Source of the DNA: Azospirillum sp. B506
GTDB lineage: Bacteria > Pseudomonadota > Alphaproteobacteria > Azospirillales > Azospirillaceae
Length of the DNA stretch: 34,395 bases
Assembly (NCBI RefSeq): GCF_000333595.1
Contig: NZ_BADK01000735.1
Coordinates: 1 to 34,395 of the forward strand
Direction of reading: 5' to 3'
The position numbers and the translations under genes were made by a program. Of this stretch, positions 22,386-34,395 are shown piece after piece (position 1 is the first letter of the stretch; every line of letters begins with the position of its first letter). The notes beneath the pieces are model-generated. The model worked only from the letters and a program-made list of their open reading frames with translations, did not search any database and was not told where the DNA came from.

Positions 22386-22874
22386 TTACAGTGTACTGAG
22401 GTCTGTTATGAACCGAGTGCAGAACTTCTCGTGTTTTCGTCTCTCCTTATCCATGAATTTTTTATAGGCGATTATAAAGCCCTCATAGAATTTCCGCTTA
22501 GTTTGCGTGGGGTCGATTTTCAAATTTCCAACCTTCTGAACCACTCCAAATCCCTGAGCTTCTATGGAAAGGCATTCCCAACTGATATATTCAACCGGAA
22601 TAAGTTGAGACTCCGAGACAATTTCTATGCGCCCGTTGTTAATCCTATAATCGACGAATATGAAGCTAAGCTGATTCCTATCCTCAAACACCCACTTATG
22701 CAATTTATTAATCGATATCATGTTTGGAGAATAGTTTTGCTTATCCAGGTTATTGCTCTTGACGTTAACGGCGTGATTATCCGTTAACATGAAGTCACCA
22801 ATTGCTTTTCGCGTTGTCGTGGTCCTATCATATCTTTTTGCGACAGACTCTTGTATTTGCTCATATATATCCAA
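22386..22874 (-). CDS. AT-rich accessory gene, probable PD-(D/E)XK-type restriction endonuclease
   Basis: The 162-residue product starts at TTG 22874 (AGGAG 9 nt upstream; an in-frame TAG five codons before excludes longer forms). The nuclease-like core is IGDF (Asp27) followed after nine residues by N-V-K (Asn37, Lys39), then NNLDKQNYSPNMISINKLHKW, FIFVDYRI, and YISWECLSIEAQGFGVVQ. The G-D-F...V-N-V-K and N-x-PN-x-IS patterns recall type II restriction enzymes, with Asn in place of the usual acidic residue before xK. The DNA is far richer in A+T than its surroundings, showing transfer. No methyltransferase is present. Identification rests on recalled motifs, so function is tentative. Confidence 0.6.
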   Translation of the reverse strand: MDIYEQIQESVAKRYDRTTTTRKAIGDFMLTDNHAVNVKSNNLDKQNYSPNMISINKLHKWVFEDRNQLSFIFVDYRINNGRIEIVSESQLIPVEYISWECLSIEAQGFGVVQKVGNLKIDPTQTKRKFYEGFIIAYKKFMDKERRKHEKFCTRFITDLSTL

Positions 22875-22904: not shown

Positions 22905-23776
22905 GAGCTTGTTCGTGACTGGCTGGTCCTGACCGGTAGGACTGTGAGCGTCGTCATCAGCCATCGGGGCAGCAGTCTATGGGCAGTGCCGTTCGCCCCA
23001 CAAGCACCACGCCAGCCTCCTGGGACGCATTCTCGAATGTCGATGCCTTCGTGGATGAGGTGTTGGCGGGGTTGACAACCATGGCGGCGGAGGGGACGCG
23101 GACGATGGGAACCGGCTCCAAGCCAGGGCTCGCCGGCGCCACCTTGCGCAAGGCGGTCATGGCGGTGTGGTACGTGTGCTTCTGCGGCATGCAGTGGCGT
23201 GCCATTGGCCAGCTCTCCGGCATTCCCTTCGGCACGCTGTACACTCTGTTCGCCCGCAGGACCCGACTGAGGTTGTGGCGCCGTTTGCTCGATCGGTTGC
23301 GCCGCACATGGCGGTTGGCCTGCGGCAACACGCCTGAACCGAGCACCGTGGTGATCGACGGCCGGACCTGCCCCTCGCTCCCGAGTTGCTTCGTGCGTGG
23401 CGTGGACGGCGGCAAGAAGATCCGCGGCGTGAAGGTCCATCTCGCCGTCGAGAAGTACGGCATTCCGCTGGCGATCGATGCTGCGCCAGCAAACGTGCAT
23501 GGCCCCAAGGGCATCGTCCCGGTCCTGCGAGAGATCGCCGGGCGCGGTTTCCAGGGACCGGCCATCGGTGACCTCGGCTATCGCGATCAGCGCCTGGCCA
23601 AAGCCGGCGAGGCGCTCGGCATCTCGGTCAGGCCGATTGCCCACGGCCGCGACGGGGTGTTCATTCCAACCGAGATCGCCTTCATCTCGATCCTCTCGCG
23701 TCGCCTGAAGCGGCTCGTCACCCAGGCAGCCCCCGCATGACGTCCACCGACAGGCACTCAACCCCAAAACCTGCTC
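22905..23776 (+). mobile_element. IS5-family insertion sequence, internally deleted
   Basis: Candidate ends are GAGCTTGTTCGTGACTGG at 22905 and, on the opposite strand, GAGCAGGTTTTGGGGTTG ending at 23776. These share GAGC..GTT and about 8 of 14 end positions, so they are weak inverted repeats. No matching target duplication flanks them (TGA at left, CGT at right). The exact ends are uncertain. The transposase has an internal loss, so the element is probably immobile. It inserts between the AT-rich nuclease gene and the hybrid kinase gene. Confidence 0.55.
22979..23740 (+). pseudogene. IS5-family transposase with probable in-frame internal deletion
   Basis: The frame encodes 253 residues. The N-terminal part has KAVMAVWYVCFCGMQWRAIG (the DUF4096-like segment of IS5 transposases). 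The first catalytic Asp is in VVIDGRTC and the second in AIGDLGYRD. The usual block of about 35 residues around W-x-VERTFAW, which carries the catalytic Glu, is absent. The sequence jumps from GRDGVFIP straight to EIAFISILSRRLKRLV, the normal C-terminal helix of this group. The reading frame stays open, so the loss is a multiple of three. Without the Glu the enzyme should be inactive. Confidence 0.75.
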
Positions 23777-26854: not shown

Positions 26855-28825
26855 ATGATTCGTGGTCGTTGTGTTCTGGTGGGCTTCGGCATGTTCTTGA
26901 AGATCTTCTCACGGAGCCTGGTTGCCCGGACCACGGCATCGGCGGTGGTGCTGGTGTCGGTGCTGGTCGCCGTGCCGATGGCCGTGCTGATCCAGGCCGA
27001 CGTGCGCAGCACACGGGCCGAGCTGGCCATCCGCGCGGAGATGGCGACCCGCATCGTGCTGGACGACGTGACCAACGCCCTGTGGGATCTGGATCCGGAA
27101 GAGGCACTGACGGCGCTGAACCCGCTGCGGTCGATCGACAGCTTCGCCGAGGCGGTGATCCTGGGCACCCATGGCGAGCGCTTCGTCACCTTCCGCAAGC
27201 CGGGCGCCGCCAGGGTGGCGGAGGAGGCCGCCACCGCCGCCACCGTGCCGCTGACCCGCCAGGACCGCAGCGGCGCTTCGCGCACCATCGGCACCCTGCT
27301 GGTCCGGCTCGACACCGGGCCGACCGACGCGGCGATCCGCCACCATGTGCTGGTGCTGGGCGGGGTCGGCGCCGTCACGCTTCTGCTGGTGGTGCTGGGG
27401 GTGATCTGGGCGACGCGCGGCATGACCCTGCCGATCGCCGGCATGACCCGCGCCATGGCCGATCTGGCCGCCGGCGACGTGACGGTGACCGTCCCGGTGC
27501 GCCACCGCGACGACGAGATCGGCCGCATGGCCAAGGCGCTCGACACCTTCCGCCAGAACGCCATCGACCTGAGCACCGCCAAGGAACGGGCGGAGCAGGC
27601 GGTGGCCTCGAAGGCCAAGTTCATGGCCGCCGCCAGCCACGACCTGCGCCAGCCGGCCCAGTCGCTGCTGATGCTGACCGCCATGCTGCGCGCCACCGCC
27701 CCCAACCCCAAGGTAGCGGACTCCGCCCGCAAGATCGAACAGGTGGTGATGACGCTGAAGCAGCTGCTCGACGATCTGCTGGAGGTGTCGCGGCTGGATG
27801 CCGGCGGCATCAGCGCCAACAAGGCGGTGCATGAGGTCGCCGACCTGTTCGACGCGCTGGATTCGCAGTACGGCCCGGTCGCCCGCAACAAGGGGCTGGC
27901 CTTCGCCGTGCCGCAATACCGCGCGCCGGTGCTGACCGACCGGGTGCTGCTGCTGCGGCTGCTCGGCAACCTGATCGACAACGCGATCCGCTACACGCCC
28001 GGCGGACAGGTGCAGGTCGCCTGCCTGGAATCCGGCGGCAACCTGATCGTCGAGGTGCGCGACAGCGGCATCGGCATCCCCGAGGACCGTCTCGACGCGA
28101 TCTGGGAGGAGTTCCACCAGATCGGCAACCCGGAGCGCAACCGCGACAACGGCATCGGTCTCGGCCTGTCGATCGTGCGGCGGCTGTCCGCCGTGCTGGA
28201 CCATCCGGTGAAGGTGCGCTCCACGCCGGGCAAGGGGTCGGTCTTCTCGGTCACCGTGCCGCTGGCGCCGGTCGGAGCGGCCGCGGCAGCCGTGGCGGAC
28301 ACTGGGGCAACCCCTGGGGCAACCCCTGGGGCAACCCCTGGGGCAGATGCTGTGGCAGATCCTGGGGTGGCAACGCTGGCGGACGCGACGGCGAAGACCG
28401 GTGAGATCGCCATCCTGGTGATCGACGACGACCAGTTCGTGCTGTCGGCCATCTCGATGTTCCTCAACTCCGCCGGACATCGCGCGGTCGGCGTCTCCAC
28501 CGTGGCCCAGGGCCTGCGCGCGGTGGAGAGCGGCGACATCCGGCCGGACGCGCTGATCGCCGACTATCACCTCTCCGCCACCGAGAACGGCCTGGATTTC
28601 ATCGACACGGTGTGGCGGCGGATCGGGCTGCGCATTCCTGCGGTGCTGATATCAGGGCGGCTCGACGGGTCAGTCACCGCCCGCGCCGCCGAGATGGGCG
28701 TCACCGTCGCCGCCAAGCCGATCATGCCGGAGCGGCTGTCGGTGCTGGTGGAGCAGATGACGGCGACCCGGCCAAAGCCGCTGCCGTCGGACACCGCCGC
28801 TCCGCATAAGACCACGACCATTTGA
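26855..28825 (+). CDS. Membrane hybrid histidine kinase (TM-HAMP-HisKA-HATPase-REC)
   Basis: The 656-residue protein has one membrane helix at about 27-47 and a periplasmic sensor of about 115 residues with LDDVTNALWDLDPEEA and SFAEAVILG. A second helix (about 165-187) and HAMP (188-240) follow. HisKA has ASHDLRQPAQSLLM (His262; the DLRQP form is common in two-component hybrids). HATPase_c has NLIDNAIRYTPGG, DSGIGIP and GIGLGLSIV. A Gly/Ala/Thr/Pro linker built of 12-bp repeats leads to a receiver with Asp570 in ALIADYHLS. ATG 26855 has AGGA about 10 nt upstream; ATG 26891 is an alternative. No partner regulator is adjacent. Confidence 0.93.
   Translation: MIRGRCVLVGFGMFLKIFSRSLVARTTASAVVLVSVLVAVPMAVLIQADVRSTRAELAIRAEMATRIVLDDVTNALWDLDPEEALTALNPLRSIDSFAEAVILGTHGERFVTFRKPGAARVAEEAATAATVPLTRQDRSGASRTIGTLLVRLDTGPTDAAIRHHVLVLGGVGAVTLLLVVLGVIWATRGMTLPIAGMTRAMADLAAGDVTVTVPVRHRDDEIGRMAKALDTFRQNAIDLSTAKERAEQAVASKAKFMAAASHDLRQPAQSLLMLTAMLRATAPNPKVADSARKIEQVVMTLKQLLDDLLEVSRLDAGGISANKAVHEVADLFDALDSQYGPVARNKGLAFAVPQYRAPVLTDRVLLLRLLGNLIDNAIRYTPGGQVQVACLESGGNLIVEVRDSGIGIPEDRLDAIWEEFHQIGNPERNRDNGIGLGLSIVRRLSAVLDHPVKVRSTPGKGSVFSVTVPLAPVGAAAAAVADTGATPGATPGATPGADAVADPGVATLADATAKTGEIAILVIDDDQFVLSAISMFLNSAGHRAVGVSTVAQGLRAVESGDIRPDALIADYHLSATENGLDFIDTVWRRIGLRIPAVLISGRLDGSVTARAAEMGVTVAAKPIMPERLSVLVEQMTATRPKPLPSDTAAPHKTTTI
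28301..28372 (+). repeat. 12-bp tandem repeat encoding the kinase-receiver linker
   Basis: Six 12-bp units occur in frame. Units 2 and 3 are identical (CCTGGGGCAACC), unit 1 differs by one base or two, unit 4 ends in GCAGAT, and units 5-6 are degenerate. They encode GATP-type repeats between the HATPase and receiver domains. Copy number can change by slippage without a frameshift, which would alter linker length. Confidence 0.85.
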
Positions 28826-28965
28826 GGCCGGCGGTCCGGCCAGAAAGCTTAGGACCCAAAATAATCTCACATACCGGGTTATGTTATGTCACAACATCCG
28901 GGCAGTGCTCCCGGACAGCCTGCACCCCGTCCGAGGGCGAATGACAAGCAACTTCGGAGGATCCT
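28826..28965. other. Intergenic region with three inverted repeats before the GRDP-like gene
   Basis: GGCCGG-CGGT-CCGGCC (28826-28841) directly follows the kinase stop and could terminate, though without a T-run. Further on are ATGTT-N7-AACAT near 28881-28897 and TCCGGG-N7-CCCGGA (28897-28915). A strong ribosome site GGAGG lies 5 nt before the next ATG. The promoter for that gene is not clear. Confidence 0.45.
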
Positions 28966-29436
28966 ATGCGCGCAGCCACCACGACCGACATCACCCGTGC
29001 CCGTGACATCATCGCCGGTTTCGACTTCGGCTATGTCGTCGAGCGCGCGGTCGCCGCGGGGATGACCCGCAGCACGTCCGAAACCGCCCTGACCCAGTTG
29101 AAAGCCTTCCTGCTGGCCTGCGCCGAGCATCCGGAGCGCGACATCGTTCCGCAGTCGGCCGCCTGCGACGACCTGTGGCACGAATTCATCGTTGCCGACA
29201 CCCGCGCCTATGTCCGCTTCTGCGAGGCGGTCTATGGCGAGTATCTGCACCACAACGGCGTGACCGTCCCGGCCGGGCGCATGGCCGCCGCCCGCACCGA
29301 CAGCGCCCGCCTGTTCGCCGGTGCCGATTGCCTGCGAGAAGCCGCGACGGCGGATTGCCTGCGGGAGACGGCGAAGGCCGACTGCCTGCGCGAAGCCAAG
29401 GGCGCCGATTGCCTGCGAGAAGCCGCGGGACGGTGA
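28966..29436 (+). CDS. GRDP-like (glycine-rich domain-containing family) protein with four Cys-containing C-terminal repeats
   Basis: The 156-residue protein has no signal peptide or membrane helix. The core (about residues 15-100) contains CDDLWHEFIVADTRAYVRFC and GEYLHH, the D-x-x-W-H-x-x-I...D-T-x-x-Y-x-x-F-C...HH pattern of the 'glycine-rich domain-containing protein' family, whose function is unknown. From residue 120 to near the end are four 9-residue repeats of the form A-D-C-L-R-E-A/T-x-x, encoded by 27-bp units at 29323-29430. Each repeat has one Cys, two acidic residues and one Arg. GGAGG 5 nt before the ATG supports the start. It follows the hybrid kinase by 140 bp. A multi-core modified peptide is conceivable but there is no maturase nearby. 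Confidence 0.85.
   Translation: MRAATTTDITRARDIIAGFDFGYVVERAVAAGMTRSTSETALTQLKAFLLACAEHPERDIVPQSAACDDLWHEFIVADTRAYVRFCEAVYGEYLHHNGVTVPAGRMAAARTDSARLFAGADCLREAATADCLRETAKADCLREAKGADCLREAAGR
29323..29430 (+). repeat. Four tandem 27-bp coding repeats
   Basis: Each 27-bp unit encodes A-D-C-L-R-E plus three variable residues. Units 1 and 4 are nearly identical in DNA (two differences or so), while units 2 and 3 are diverged mostly at synonymous positions. The protein motif is therefore kept by selection or gene conversion. The repeat ends two codons before the stop. Confidence 0.9.
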
Positions 29437-29541: not shown

Positions 29542-30081
29542 TCAGTCGCGTCCACCGCCGTCCGGCCTGCTCCTGTCCAGCCCGCCCCTGTCGGGACCGC
29601 CTTCATCTGAACCGCCATCGAGCAGAGCCTGTGCCCTGGTCGACAGGGGACAGCCGCGCCGGGCCAGGCGGAGAATGACGTCGCGGGCCAACTCCCGGCT
29701 GGCGGTGTTGCCGATGAAGCTCGACCGCGAATCTGAGAATTCCAAAACGACGTTGTTCGTTCCGATGCCTTCCCGATAATCAATCCTCGACACTGCCCGG
29801 TAGCGCTTCCTGCGGGTGCGGATGACCCGGCATTCGATGTGATCGGGACGCAGGATCAGGGTCGGCTTCAGGTTGCTCGACGAGTGGGTCAGCCAGGGAA
29901 TCCCTTTCCATCCGGAAAATGCGGCGACCAGGGGAACACGCTCGCCGTCGCCATCGGCTTCGATCCGGCCTTGCCGGACAGCGGAAAGCCTCATGCGGAT
30001 GTAGAGGACCAAAGCCAGTCCACCGGAGGCAAGGAGCAGCATCACTACGACGATGAGGCTGAGGGCGGCCGGATCGCTCAT
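29542..30081 (-). CDS. Membrane-anchored hypothetical protein
   Basis: The 179-residue protein has one N-terminal membrane helix (ALSLIVVVMLLLASGGLALVLYI, residues 6-28) and a cytoplasmic or periplasmic domain. The domain has a predicted beta pattern (WLTHSSSNLKPTLILRPDHIECRVIRTRRKRYRAVSRID) resembling PH-like membrane-protein domains. It ends in a Gly/Asp/Arg-rich tail. I do not recognise a named family. AGGAG 6 nt before the ATG supports the start. It lies 52 bp downstream of the substrate-binding protein gene on the same strand and may be co-transcribed. Confidence 0.75.
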   Translation of the reverse strand: MSDPAALSLIVVVMLLLASGGLALVLYIRMRLSAVRQGRIEADGDGERVPLVAAFSGWKGIPWLTHSSSNLKPTLILRPDHIECRVIRTRRKRYRAVSRIDYREGIGTNNVVLEFSDSRSSFIGNTASRELARDVILRLARRGCPLSTRAQALLDGGSDEGGPDRGGLDRSRPDGGGRD

Positions 30082-30133: not shown

Positions 30134-31705
30134 TCAGCCGAAATTCAGGCCGCCGAACGGCGTGATGAAGGTGTCGCTCAGCACATTGCCACGCAACGCC
30201 ACATAGTCCGGCACGACCAGCGGGATCACCGGCAGCTCCCGCATCACCAGACATTCGGCGTCCTTGTAGACCTCGGCCCGGCGGAGGGGATCGGGGATCG
30301 CCATCGCCCGCTCGATCAGGCCGTCGAATTGGGCATTCGACCAGCCGACCGGGTTGAAGCGGCTGCCGCTGCTGAACAGCTCATCGAGGAAATTCATCGG
30401 ATCGGGATAGGTGGCGGTCCAGCCGAACAGGAAGGCGTCGTAATCGCGCCGGCGGGAACGGGCGATGAACTCCTGCCGCGGCGCCATCACCAGCGTCGCC
30501 GGGATGCCGGCATTGTTCCATTGCGAGACGTAATAGACGAACTCCCGCCGGTATTCCGGGACGACGGTGACCTGGAAGGGTTCGATGCCGCGCCCGTCGG
30601 GATAGCCGGCCTCCTCCAGCAGGCGTTTCGCCAGCATCGGATCGTAAGCCAGCGGCTCCAGCCGTTCGTTGGCCAGCAGGGCCGGCGGCACGACGCCGTT
30701 GTGGACGGCCGCCACCCCGCGGAAGAAGCGCTCCGCCATCGCCGCGCGGTCGATCAGCAGCGACATCGCGCGGCGCACCCGCAGATCGCCGAACGCCCTG
30801 ACCCGCCGCGGGTCGAGCGCCACCACCCGCATCTGCATGCGCGGCACGCTGGACAGCGACCGTTTGAAGCCAGGGTCGTCCATCACCCCGCGCAGCGCAT
30901 CGGTGTCGACGAAGGCAAAGTCGATCTGGCTGTCGTTGAACAGCGTGATGCCGTCGTTGCCGATGCCGGTGGCAAGGAAGGACACGCGCTCGAACGGCAC
31001 CGAACCGCCGCGCCAGGCGGGATTGGCCTCCACATCCATGCGGATGCCATCGCTCGACCGCACCAGCCGATAGGGGCCGGTTCCCGCCGACAGCGTGCGG
31101 TACCAGTCGGGACCCGCCTGCTCGGCGGCCTCGACATCGACGATGTTCAGTCGGGCGAAGGGAAAGACGGCGCAGGGCTCGTCGCAGGCGACCTCCAAAG
31201 TCCGCTCGTCGATCACGGCGATGCCCGACAGGCCGGCGGCGGTCCGCGCCCGCAGGTCGCGGAAGCCCCGCACCTTCGACAGGGCAAGCACCGCGAAGTT
31301 GGTGCCGTCGCCCGACAGTGCAGCCTCGAAGCTGCGCTTGACGTCCATGGCGGTCAGGGGACGGCCGGTGTGGAAGGTGACGCCGTCGCGGATGGTCAGC
31401 CGCCAACGCCGGGCATCCTCCGACGCTTCCCAGGCTGTGGCGAGGCCGGGCAGGATACGGCCCTTGGGATCGACCGTGGTCAGGCTTTCATACATCGAGC
31501 CGAGAACCTGACGCGCGACCAGATCGTTGACGGTCAGCGGATTGAGCGCGCCGGGCAGGGACTTCAGCCCGATCCGCAGGGTGCCGGACGCCGCCATCGC
31601 CGGACGCGGCAACGCCCCGGCTAGGCCGGCCGCTCCGAGCAGACCGCCGCCAAGCAGGCCCCCACCAAGCAGACCAAGGAACTGTCGTCTCCGCACCGAC
31701 GGCAT
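30134..31705 (-). CDS. ABC transporter substrate-binding protein, peptide/nickel family 5, Tat-exported
   Basis: The 523-residue protein has a Tat signal (SVRRRQFLGLLGGG followed by a Gly/Leu/Ala helix, cleavage near AMAASG). The SBP_bac_5 fold has LGSMYESLTTVDPKGRILPGLATAWEASED, WRLTIRDGVTFHTGRPLTAMDVKRSFE and DLRVRRAMSLLIDR, with FGWTATYPDPMNFLDELFSSGS near the C-terminus. It should bind a peptide or similar ligand in the periplasm. No permease or ATPase gene lies beside it, so it is an orphan binding protein here. The ribosome site before ATG 31705 is weak (GGGTCAGCG). Confidence 0.92.
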   Translation of the reverse strand: MPSVRRRQFLGLLGGGLLGGGLLGAAGLAGALPRPAMAASGTLRIGLKSLPGALNPLTVNDLVARQVLGSMYESLTTVDPKGRILPGLATAWEASEDARRWRLTIRDGVTFHTGRPLTAMDVKRSFEAALSGDGTNFAVLALSKVRGFRDLRARTAAGLSGIAVIDERTLEVACDEPCAVFPFARLNIVDVEAAEQAGPDWYRTLSAGTGPYRLVRSSDGIRMDVEANPAWRGGSVPFERVSFLATGIGNDGITLFNDSQIDFAFVDTDALRGVMDDPGFKRSLSSVPRMQMRVVALDPRRVRAFGDLRVRRAMSLLIDRAAMAERFFRGVAAVHNGVVPPALLANERLEPLAYDPMLAKRLLEEAGYPDGRGIEPFQVTVVPEYRREFVYYVSQWNNAGIPATLVMAPRQEFIARSRRRDYDAFLFGWTATYPDPMNFLDELFSSGSRFNPVGWSNAQFDGLIERAMAIPDPLRRAEVYKDAECLVMRELPVIPLVVPDYVALRGNVLSDTFITPFGGLNFG

Positions 31706-31977: not shown

Positions 31978-32832
31978 TCAAGCCCCCAGCAGGGCGTCGA
32001 TGCGGTCGCGCAGGGCCTGCAGCCGCTCGCGGTGCTCGCGCTGCAAGGCCTGGGCGACGGTGTCGATGGCGGCCAGATCCTTGTCCATCCGGTTGATCGC
32101 CTTGCCCAGCACCCGCAACGGCTCGGCCGAACTGGAGGCCGCCGGCCGGGCGGCGCGCACCGCGCCGACGGTCAGCCCGCCGGTCCGCGCCGTCTGCCAC
32201 AGCCGGCGCAGCTCCGCCTCATCCTCGACGAAGGCCAGCTCGACCAGGGCGGAGCGCGACACCGCGTCGGGGTTGGCGCGGTAATCGGCAAGGATGTCGT
32301 CGGGCAGGCGCAGCACCTTCAGGCGCTTGGAGACCTCGGCCTCCGAACAGCCGACGGCCGCCGCAACCTCCGCCTGGGTGTAGCCGTGCGCCTCGATCAG
32401 CTGGGACAGGCCGCGGGCAAGGTCGATGGCGTCGAGGTCCACGCGCTGGACATTCTCGATCAGCGCGATCTCTTCCGGCCGGCCCTTGGTGATGATGGCG
32501 GCGATGGTGCCGCGGCCGAGCAGCCGGTGGGCGCGCAGCCGCCGTTCGCCGGCCACCAGCCGGTAGCGGCCCTTCTGCTCCCCTTCCTGGACGAGGACAG
32601 GTTGCTGCAACCCGTGGCGGGCGATGGAGTCGGCCAGCGAGCGCAGGGACTCGTCGTCGAACACCGTGCGCGGCTGGCGGGGGTTGGTCTCCACCGCGTC
32701 CAGATCGACCTCGACCAGCCGGGGCAGCACGCCGCTCAGCCCGAACATGCGGTCGGTCTCGGCGGCGAAGCCGGCCTCCTTGGCCTGAAGCACGGTGGCG
32801 GCGGTCTGCCGGGTCAGCTTCTTAGGCGGCAT
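31978..32832 (-). CDS. parB: Partition protein ParB
   Basis: The 284-residue protein is a CTP-dependent DNA-clamp ParB/Spo0J homologue. The ParB/Srx domain has the boxes NPRQPRTVFDDESLRSLADSIARHGLQQPVLVQ, GRYRLVAGERRLRAHRLLG and ALIENVQRVDLDAIDLARG. The helix-turn-helix is YTQAEVAAAVGCSEAEVSKRLKVLRLP. A linker and a C-terminal dimerisation helix (about 235-284) follow. It should load at parS and act with ParA to segregate the replicon. Its ATG overlaps the parA 3' end by 11 bp, so the two are co-translated. The candidate parS palindromes lie just downstream. Confidence 0.95.
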   Translation of the reverse strand: MPPKKLTRQTAATVLQAKEAGFAAETDRMFGLSGVLPRLVEVDLDAVETNPRQPRTVFDDESLRSLADSIARHGLQQPVLVQEGEQKGRYRLVAGERRLRAHRLLGRGTIAAIITKGRPEEIALIENVQRVDLDAIDLARGLSQLIEAHGYTQAEVAAAVGCSEAEVSKRLKVLRLPDDILADYRANPDAVSRSALVELAFVEDEAELRRLWQTARTGGLTVGAVRAARPAASSSAEPLRVLGKAINRMDKDLAAIDTVAQALQREHRERLQALRDRIDALLGA

Positions 32833-33844
32833 CGACGGTCTCCTGCAGGCGTCCCATGGCGGTCAGCAGCGCAGCGGCGATGGCGGCGTAGCTCTCCACC
32901 CCCGGCGCGCCGATGTCGGCATCCAGCGTGATGACATTCGCGCCCGCCGCCTGGGCGTAGATGGTGGCGCGCGGCACCGGCGGGAACACGCGGCGGCTGT
33001 CGCCCCACAGCCGCTGGATGTCGTCGAGCGACGAGCGGTCCTGGGTCTGGCGCGGGTTGACCATGGTCGGCAGGATGCCCAGCACCTCCAGCCGCGGGTT
33101 GAGGCGGCGCTGGATCTTGGCGACGGTGTCGAGGAAGGCGCTGACGCCGAGGATGGCGTGCGGCTCCGCCTGGCAGGGCACCAGAACGTAATCGGCGGCG
33201 GTCAGCGCGTTGATCGTCACCGCGCCCAGGTTGGGAGCGCAGTCGATGACGATCACGTCATAACGCTCCCGCACGCCGTCGAGCATTTCGGCCAGCGCGG
33301 TCTGCGCATTGGTCAGGTTGCCCGGCAGTTCGGTGTCGGCGCTCGCCAGCGCAATGCTGGAAGGAACGATATCCAGCCCGTCGACACTGGTCGGGCGGAT
33401 CACCGCGTCGAGGGGCGTCTTGCCCATCAGCGCGTGATAGAGAACCTTGCCGGCCTCGGTCAGCGCAACGATGTCGGTCTGCGGCACGCCGACATGGACG
33501 GACGCGTTGCCCTGCGGATCGGCATCGACCAGCAGGACGCGGTTGCCGGCCCGCGCCAGGATGAAGGCGAGGTTGATGGAGGTCGCGGTCTTGGCGGTGC
33601 CACCCTTCTGCAGGCCGACGGCGACAGTGGTGCCGCGACGGGGCAGGGGGCTTTCCGGCCGTTCGAGGTCGAGCAGAAGCAGCCGGCCCAGCACGTCACG
33701 GGGCAGGGCTTCCTTGCCGGTTTCCCATTTGCTGAGCCGCTGCTTGTCGTATTTGCGGCCGATCAACTCGTTGACGAACGCCGCCATCTGCGTCTGGGTC
33801 AGGCCGCGCCGTTCCCGCAACGCCTTCAACTGTTCCCCTGTCAC
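32822..33844 (-). CDS. parA: Partition ATPase ParA with N-terminal XRE-type helix-turn-helix (type Ia-like)
   Basis: The 340-residue protein begins at GTG 33844 (AGGAG 8-9 nt upstream); a longer frame to 33907 adds 21 Ala/Gly/Arg-rich residues and is unlikely. Residues 1-60 form a Cro/C1-type HTH (LKALRERRGLTQTQMAAFV...LSKWETGKEALP). Residues from about 72 are the deviant Walker ATPase: KGGTAKTATSINLA (Lys80, Lys85), LLVDADPQGNAS, IVIDCAPNLGAVTINAL and VLVPCQAEPHAILG. An HTH fused to ParA is the type Ia arrangement (as in P1), where ParA also represses its own promoter. Inverted repeats at 33911-33986 are candidate targets. Confidence 0.94.
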   Translation of the reverse strand: MTGEQLKALRERRGLTQTQMAAFVNELIGRKYDKQRLSKWETGKEALPRDVLGRLLLLDLERPESPLPRRGTTVAVGLQKGGTAKTATSINLAFILARAGNRVLLVDADPQGNASVHVGVPQTDIVALTEAGKVLYHALMGKTPLDAVIRPTSVDGLDIVPSSIALASADTELPGNLTNAQTALAEMLDGVRERYDVIVIDCAPNLGAVTINALTAADYVLVPCQAEPHAILGVSAFLDTVAKIQRRLNPRLEVLGILPTMVNPRQTQDRSSLDDIQRLWGDSRRVFPPVPRATIYAQAAGANVITLDADIGAPGVESYAAIAAALLTAMGRLQETVDAA

Positions 33845-34024
33845 GCTCCGTTCTCCTGCCCCGGCACCGGTTGCGGCAACCCTAGCAAGTCGTCGCGACT
33901 GCGGCAACGGGTGTCTACCGGATGGGGAGGAGACACTCCCTCTCCCGGGGCTCTCAGCGGATCTTCGATCCGCCTGACGCCGTCAGCACAAACAAAGTTC
34001 GTGCGAGAGGCGGGAGAGGTCGAT
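33845..34024. promoter_or_regulatory. repA-parA intergenic region with several inverted repeats (candidate par operator)
   Basis: GTGTCT-N14-AGACAC (33911-33936), GCGGATC-TTC-GATCCGC (33957-33973) and CTGACG-C-CGTCAG (33974-33986) lie within 76 bp upstream of parA and downstream of repA. They may include a repA terminator and the operator bound by the ParA HTH domain. None has a T-tract. A block at 33938-33960 resembles that after parB (31925-31967). Confidence 0.5.
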
Positions 34025-34395
34025 TTACACCGTCTCGTCGTATTCGACCTTGGGAACGTCGATCCAATTTTCCGGCTGGCCCTGGTCCTTCTTCCAGAAC
34101 AGCACCGGCAGGTCGGCGTTCAACACGCGGCCGAGAACGGCGCCGCGCGCCTTCATCGTCTCCTTGTATTCCGCCGTCTCGACGATGCGGACGCCGTAAC
34201 CGGGGATGCGGTCGGCGGCCAGGACCGGCCCCAGCGCGTTCTTGAACTTGCGCAGGTCGTTGTCGGAGCCGACCCGCTTGCGCAGGGGCTCAAGCGCCAT
34301 CCAGAAGGCATGGCCGCGGGCGAGATGGGCGCGGGCGATCTCGTAAAGCCGCTTCTCCACCGGCTTCAGCGCGAAATACTGGTCGTCGTAGCTCA
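34025..34395 (-). CDS. repA: Plasmid replication initiator RepA (RPA family), C-terminal part, cut by window edge
   Basis: The visible 123 residues start inside the protein with SYDDQYFALKPVEKRLYEIARAHL, a block of the RPA replication-initiator family (Pfam RPA-type) common on alphaproteobacterial plasmids. GHAFWMALEPLRKRVGSD and LRKFKNALGPVL follow. The N-terminus lies beyond 34395; a GTG at 34360 is inside the gene, not its start. RepA would open the replicon's origin, which is probably outside the window. It is transcribed towards parA, which starts about 180 bp further on, giving the order repA-parA-parB. Confidence 0.85.
   Translation of the reverse strand, partial: SYDDQYFALKPVEKRLYEIARAHLARGHAFWMALEPLRKRVGSDNDLRKFKNALGPVLAADRIPGYGVRIVETAEYKETMKARGAVLGRVLNADLPVLFWKKDQGQPENWIDVPKVEYDETV

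Follow-up and report, generated by a model that had tools for sequence, protein, structure and literature searches.

Why does a small bacterial protein end in four near-equal nonapeptides, each with a single cysteine? The question is raised by DCL, which is encoded in a 34,395-nucleotide stretch of Azospirillum sp. B506 DNA (contig NZ_BADK01000735.1), the whole of which was analyzed and is called the window here. A sequence-only reading of the window had described DCL as a GRDP-like protein with a D-x-x-W-H...HH core and a cysteine-repeat tail, and had suggested that its neighbors could share its function. The features concerned are collected in Table 1.

Table 1. Features of the window at and around DCL
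Feature	Position	Strand	Basis
HK2, hybrid histidine kinase (HAMP-HisKA-HATPase-receiver; CHASE8 below cut-off)	26855..28825	+	Pfam/NCBIfam
Candidate operator, near-palindrome TGTTATGTCACAACA	28882..28896	+	between HK2 and DCL
DCL, beaded-tail GRDP-like protein gene, 156 aa	28966..29436	+	ORF + GGAGG + orthologues
GRDP-like helical domain, residues 13-115, conserved D-x-x-W-H, Y, G, H	29002..29310	+	alignments A1-A3, AlphaFold2, pN/pS 0.27
Bead 1, ADCLREAAT	29323..29349	+	Tandem Repeats Finder, pairwise codon comparison
Bead 2, ADCLRETAK	29350..29376	+	Tandem Repeats Finder, pairwise codon comparison
Bead 3, ADCLREAKG	29377..29403	+	Tandem Repeats Finder, pairwise codon comparison
Bead 4, ADCLREAAG	29404..29430	+	Tandem Repeats Finder, pairwise codon comparison
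Membrane protein	29542-30081		adjoins DCL in 3/20 genomes
Orphan family-5 substrate-binding protein (PF00496)	30134..31705	-	Pfam

DCL and its distant homology to the GRDP-like family

The DCL reading frame is real: GGAGG lies 5 bases 5' of its ATG (28956-28960), the gene is syntenic, and orthologues are present in 20 of 45 Azospirillum genomes (the genome of the window counted). A DCL profile matched 25 Azospirillum genomes, five of which lack the array and were reached via a distant paralogue only, and it gave no match at E ≤ 1e-3 among 55 non-Azospirillum genomes. PLSDB annotates the gene of A. ramasamyi as 'hypothetical protein'; its gene table, incomplete or empty for three other Azospirillum records, shows none at that place in them.

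The core described from the sequence was located at D68, W71, H72, H95, and H96. Residues D68, W71, H72, Y82, G91, and H96 were invariant in an 18-sequence alignment. AlphaFold2 modeled the domain as helices, with pLDDT block means of 69-89 over residues 11-90. Values were 56 and below from residue 91 and below 50 for residues 108-156, as expected of a flexible tail. The model, which came from a shallow 14-row alignment, gave no convincing structural match in Foldseek against the PDB (best E 1.4) or in VIA-align (best Z 4.8, rmsd 4.5, 77 aligned). No signal peptide was seen by eye, and this small protein is probably cytosolic.

Neither DCL nor a second DCL protein (L016) matched any Pfam or NCBIfam family at E ≤ 1. 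A paralogue from the same genome (C649) matches DCL at E 1.1e-7 (profile E 2.0e-9) and, with its neighbors in frame, scored 22.8 bits against the GRDP-like family PF07173, barely above the curated cut-off of 22.7 bits. Two further relatives passed this cut-off (L050, 26.5; L059, 28.0) and two did not reach it (L076, 19.0; L052, 19.5). Because DCL falls below the cut-off and some relatives lie above it, we file DCL as a distant homologue and not as a member; the GRDP-like label was right in the first sense only. The wider family is scattered through bacteria. Within the class, 26 of 385 genomes have a match (E ≤ 1e-3), and within the phylum 41 of 397 (E ≤ 1e-4); 47 plasmid and 9 phage records match as well.

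The plant members of PF07173 (GRDP, or DUF1399) provide a point of comparison. AtGRDP2 is a protein of 787 aa that has its DUF1399 at the N-terminus and cysteines scattered through a glycine-rich tail (PMC4299439). DCL resembles it in joining a distantly homologous D-x-x-W-H...H domain to a C-terminal low-complexity tail, and differs from it in having a regular 9-residue single-Cys array and no Pfam match. The domain family is thus already known by name. Among titles and abstract starts we found no characterized bacterial GRDP-like member (a mention in body text is possible), no match to the string ADCLREA, and nothing on this array.

The nine-residue unit is kept at the protein level

The C-terminus of DCL consists of four in-register units of A-D-C-L-R-E-[A/T]-x-x, just as the earlier reading had it. 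Tandem Repeats Finder gave the stretch (29323-29430) a score of 119, with period 27 and 3.9 copies. The synonymous variation noticed in units 2 and 3 was also borne out: both differ from units 1 and 4 at synonymous sites, and the first 24 bases of units 1 and 4 are identical. Pairwise comparison of the D-C-L-R codons counted 0 nonsynonymous and 8 synonymous differences. Four identical x-C-x-x units at 9-residue spacing appeared in 0 of 200,000 random proteins of DCL composition. The array supports the view that the single-Cys repeat is a protein-level unit.

Repeat number and motif were compared among homologues, a check that the sequence-only reading had itself proposed. All 20 orthologous proteins carry the array, in 3-17 copies; the 11 beads of L013 are a minimum, this protein running off its contig. 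The 20 distinct proteins hold 176 bead units, which were counted by searching for DCLR, so that the presence of DCLR in each counted unit is by construction. Spacing within an array is always exactly 9 residues. An 18-residue gap, the mark of a broken internal unit, occurs in none of the 20 arrays, although a broken unit at an array end could escape the DCLR-based count. Position 6 is E in 163 of the 176 units. Residues vary at both linker positions, with P and G accepted at the final one.

Codon comparisons separate the bead from its linker. Within arrays of 14 proteins, pN/pS was 0.006 for DCLR (pN 0.0035, pS 0.573), 0.014 for ADCLREA (pN 0.0088, pS 0.614), and 1.05 for the two-residue linker (pN 0.488, pS 0.465), values which are descriptive and not tests, the within-array pairs being non-independent. 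The folded domain, compared between the same 14 loci, gave 0.27 (pN 0.099, pS 0.368), about 20-fold apart from the bead core. Because Leu TTG and Arg AGG synonyms occur in the beads, it is the peptide, and not the DNA, that is kept. These patterns indicate that the beads sit on a free string with sequence-specific selection acting on each. No part of DCL is more constrained than the beads, which behave as separate units and are specific to the lineage.

Cysteine tails and bead arrays in relatives

We retained as relatives 61 distinct non-DCL proteins whose frame fits the W-H...H pattern and dropped other profile matches. A tail Cys is present in 53 of the 61, falling within the last 40 residues in 52, and is absent from 8. 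Cys accounts for 4.8% of residues in the 50 short tails of these proteins, and C-x-H-like arrangements recur in some. In 17 of 34 cases, the residue at -2 from the first tail Cys is Ala (background 12.3%, p 1e-7). This sample comprised non-Gly-rich tails with near-identical sequences removed, of which 37 of 46 had a Cys, three lying too near the tail start. Tails were delimited by pattern, which placed a few of the scored Cys in the folded part (L059, L103, L104); none of these has Ala at -2.

Tandem single-Cys arrays of unrelated sequence were found in three other families (L108, L109/L050, and L067/L143). At L108, two neighboring genes of one genome encode 8 × AYCAGPH plus one AYCASPH, and 8 × AFCAGPH. 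In the L109/L050 tail, five MCGGM units are accompanied by a divergent CSG unit, and the L067/L143 tail contains 5 × ALCVPS[K/R]. Paired units are found in Azospirillum paralogues (L038, DFAMCI; L040, EQCW). The beads of the second L108 gene (L108b) showed 0 nonsynonymous and 122 synonymous pairwise differences; pN and pS were 0.014 and 0.524 for those of the first (L108a), 0.062 and 0.922 for L109, and 0.104 and 0.79 for L067. The three larger arrays (L108, L109, L067) thus also keep their cores, with synonymous sites varying. In the second L108 gene the beads are invariant and the linkers highly divergent.

Since distant relatives evolved a similar beaded Cys tail with different sequences, the beads very probably do something specific. 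Single-Cys bead arrays have emerged repeatedly, each time with a conserved core and unconstrained linkers, which indicates that the short thiol-bearing peptide is the working part. Function can therefore be probed directly with bead mutants, and a novel type of thiol sensor, adaptor, or regulator-linked peptide system may come to light.

Genes around DCL

The locus is ordered HK1(-) HK2(+) DCL(+) binding protein(-) parB(-) parA(-). Of the neighbors that had been suggested as possibly sharing a function with DCL, the kinase stood as a conserved one and the membrane protein did not. HK2 lies directly upstream of DCL in 20 of 20 DCL genomes. The membrane protein is beside DCL in the window, L031, and L035 only, and was rejected as part of the system. 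The outcome that the sequence-only reading had taken as the sign of an expansion without function, homologues devoid of a Cys repeat together with the lack of a conserved neighborhood, did not arise: both the array and HK2 are present in 20 of 20.

The orphan binding protein adjoins DCL in 19 of 20 genomes, one of which (G024) was scored across a contig break; in the remaining genome, G035, it is on another contig. HK2 orthologues (66% identity or more) are present in 22 of 45 Azospirillum genomes, the 20 with DCL and two without, and orthologues of the binding protein occur in the same 22. In the two genomes without DCL (G030 and G032) HK2 and the binding protein are neighbors, and HK2 therefore does not need DCL. 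The presence of the pair may follow clade, and so is not independent evidence of a shared function. On these three genomes, an obligate partnership of the binding protein with DCL was rejected as a firm claim.

When nine window genes were compared with 13 loci (L013 ends at DCL), only the kinases, the binding protein, parAB, and a 111-aa ORF recurred. No maturase or peptidase, either of which had been suggested as a possible conserved neighbor, and no exporter was recognized among the annotated genes beside DCL. The window at 31978-34360 holds parB, parA, and the conserved 111-aa ORF, the par genes being so named in A. ramasamyi. Because these genes, which serve replicon partition, lie next to DCL, part of the synteny seen at the locus belongs to the origin region. 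Two smaller features of the window may be mentioned. A 12-base tandem repeat in HK2 (28302-28345, CTGGGGCAACCC × 3.7) encodes an A-T-P-G linker at the kinase-receiver junction. A possible trace of an insertion is a small ORF of unusual composition (22386-22874) that has an IS4/5-type transposase (22979-23740) beside it.

A candidate operator precedes DCL. Its sequence TGYTRTGNCACAACA is exact in 9 of 13 aligned DCL upstream regions and is present with one mismatch in L010; the upstream regions of L013-L015 do not fit it. The element occurs once per genome in five of six genomes, each time just upstream of DCL. It had 0 matches in the sixth (G037), whose DCL has three beads, and 0 control matches.

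Neighbors of other GRDP-like genes

One regulator family adjoins 13 of the 14 other Azospirillum GRDP genes (the exception is L132). Its profile was seeded by five of the 13, and the other eight matched at E 1.6e-32 or better. Across 40 GRDP regions there was one further match, weak and about 3 kb away (L140, E 1.6e-9). In Pfam the family matches below cut-off only (GerE, E 0.0025-0.0081; PAS_7, E 0.00038), which makes the name PAS/LuxR provisional. An XRE-methyltransferase gene lies beside GRDP in five regions from four genomes of the class; the methyltransferase part was clear in the three scanned, and the HTH was above cut-off in L111 only. The two L108 genes, with 9 and 8 A[YF]CA[GS]PH beads, lie behind a CHASE-histidine kinase (L108:8344-10635). 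SBP_5 proteins within 3 kb of GRDP in 3 of 40 other regions (L109, L116, L124) are at most suggestive, since these three proteins, along with two from DCL loci, were the seeds of the profile. In 21 of the 40 regions there was no match to the regulator, methyltransferase, or SBP profiles, which do not cover regulators of further types, the L108 kinase among them.

Clustering of 240 neighbor proteins (under 1000 aa) from the 40 regions, with genes called by a simple caller that is crude in high-GC DNA, placed the PAS/LuxR-type regulator in 9 regions (BLAST), EamA-type transporters in 7, the XRE-methyltransferase in 5, and the remainder in smaller groups. The EamA-type transporters are all in Azospirillum paralogue regions (one checked by Pfam). 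A shared maturase was rejected: no gene was common to all 40 regions. At L109:7946-9100, a SET-domain gene directly downstream of the MCGGMLK-bead GRDP gene encodes a possible tail lysine methyltransferase.

What the beads might do

The Cys chemistry and the partner put forward here are proposals. Our first choice, a tentative one, is that DCL works as an adaptor linked to a regulator, with a tail that offers multivalent docking through beads that each bear a thiol. The GRDP-like helical domain would carry a flexible string of 3-17 near-equal A-D-C-L-R-E docking beads, and one partner protein would recognize each bead separately via the thiol and the flanking D, L, and R. This partner would most likely belong to the regulatory module encoded alongside, HK2 in the case of DCL and the adjoining PAS/LuxR- or XRE-type regulators for other GRDP-like proteins. 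The tail would serve as a multivalent adaptor or titrator, with binding set by the state of the Cys (free, oxidized, metal-bound, or modified) and capacity tuned by bead number.

A multivalent docking tail would explain the per-unit conservation, free linkers, lineage-specific motifs, and regulator linkage. The distant homology of the domain and the private candidate operator, found once per genome in five of six genomes, are likewise observed; that DCL binds the regulator, that the thiol state governs this binding, and that DCL is cytosolic are what the adaptor would presume. In its favor are the D-C-L-R of all 176 units (by construction of the count) at exact 9-residue spacing, the low tail pLDDT, and a bead sequence which is lineage-specific and yet recurrently has Ala at -2 of the first tail Cys. 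Regulator linkage comprises HK2 beside DCL (20/20), the PAS/LuxR-type family beside the Azospirillum paralogues (13/14), the XRE-methyltransferase of five regions, and the CHASE kinase at L108. These neighboring families nevertheless differ (kinase, PAS/LuxR, XRE), so there is no single partner domain common to them, and 21 of 40 GRDP regions match none of the three profiles. HK2 and the binding protein exist without DCL (G030, G032), and the operator is absent from G037 and L013-L015. Redundant beads, moreover, should each face weak selection, whereas the observed selection is extreme.

A possible but less probable reading makes DCL a multi-core peptide precursor, with the GRDP-like domain as a long leader and the beads as cores modified at Cys and/or excised. 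It would yield a single short peptide in many copies, either a RiPP or a signal of the alpha-factor type, to which the neighboring peptide-type binding protein might bind. Kex2-processed and multi-core precursors have free linkers and variable copy number, as does DCL with its short tandem units and conserved core, and lineage-specific cores on a conserved N-terminal domain would fit. Fungal Kex2-processed repeat proteins and multi-core RiPP precursors (PMC7329392) also share with DCL the repetition of short units in one precursor. DCL departs from them in several ways: inspection by eye showed neither a secretion signal nor dibasic sites separating the beads, the annotated genes beside it include no recognized maturation gene, and its N-terminal part is a conserved folded domain. 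Bufferins, Cys-containing peptide precursors linked to MNIO enzymes, are small bacterial proteins with short Cys motifs, as is DCL; the DCL bead differs from their motifs, and no MNIO gene is among the annotated neighbors. A family-5 binding protein near GRDP at L109, L116, L124, and DCL speaks for a precursor, as do possible modifiers or exporters beside some GRDP genes: SET (L109), XRE-methyltransferase, radical SAM (a Streptomyces plasmid), and EamA-type (7 regions). No such enzyme was recognized among the annotated genes beside DCL, however, where the neighbors recurring in Azospirillum loci are kinases, the binding protein, and parAB. The precursor also has to reckon with the lack of a gene common to all 40 regions and with a binding protein that G030 and G032 have although they lack DCL, and that in G035 is not linked to DCL.

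It is rather unlikely that the tail is a thiol or metal store. Such a store would use the tail Cys, the bead Asp/Glu, and the domain His to capture a soft metal ion, a persulfide, or some other ligand that reacts with thiols, and its capacity would grow with bead number. Metallothioneins repeat cysteines in a flexible small tail, as DCL does, and carry C-x-C or C-x-x-C metal-thiolate motifs. All 20 DCL arrays instead have one Cys per unit, exactly 9 apart with flanking residues kept, and contain neither motif. A store would have no need for D, L, and R in every unit, and no metal transporter was recognized among the conserved neighbors (kinase, binding protein, parAB). What favors it is the persistence of Cys among relatives with otherwise unrelated tails (53/61), the C-x-H-like arrangements of some, and the interspersed Cys of the AtGRDP2 glycine-rich tail (PMC4299439).

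More speculative, and in our judgment improbable, is that beaded-tail GRDP-like proteins are an undescribed bacterial class of multi-unit peptide carriers. The conserved domain would present, or be converted into, many copies of an A-x-C peptide, a lineage-specific signal to the adjoining sensor or regulator (hybrid kinase, PAS/LuxR, XRE) whose sequence would evolve by lineage like a private code, with tandem amplification repeated. Neutral or selfish expansion by slippage, leaving beads without function, would account for copy numbers of 3 to 17 within Azospirillum and for the nearly identical DNA of window units 1 and 4, but is very improbable and already disfavored: core amino acids are kept at diverged synonymous sites (pS ~0.6), the TTG and AGG synonyms mean that DNA homogenization cannot explain bead conservation, and unrelated arrays bear the same signature.

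GRDP-like genes on plasmids and phages

Eleven plasmid and phage regions were chosen from the 56 records. Seven of these are from Streptomyces plasmids, two from Streptomyces phages, and one each from Rhodococcus and Rhizobium. An HTH gene lies near GRDP in 8 of the 11, which is weak support for an adaptor because HTH genes are common on plasmids and phages. An arbitrium-like arrangement (XRE-TPR receptor plus peptide) at the phage and Streptomyces loci was set aside, the seven regulators scanned yielding one sub-threshold TPR (L189, E 0.024). DUF5753 was present in two of the seven.

Three of these settings are recorded as observations. In two Streptomyces phages (L187 and L191), GRDP-like genes lie near an integrase and a repressor or regulator gene. 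On a Streptomyces plasmid (L179:2764-5399), the surroundings of a GRDP-like gene include a radical SAM gene as well as a 42-aa ORF that ends in GCGEDNPF and resembles a peptide precursor. In Rhizobium gallicum (L188:3357-3947), a Cys-tailed GRDP-like gene is found among nif and electron-transfer (fix) genes.
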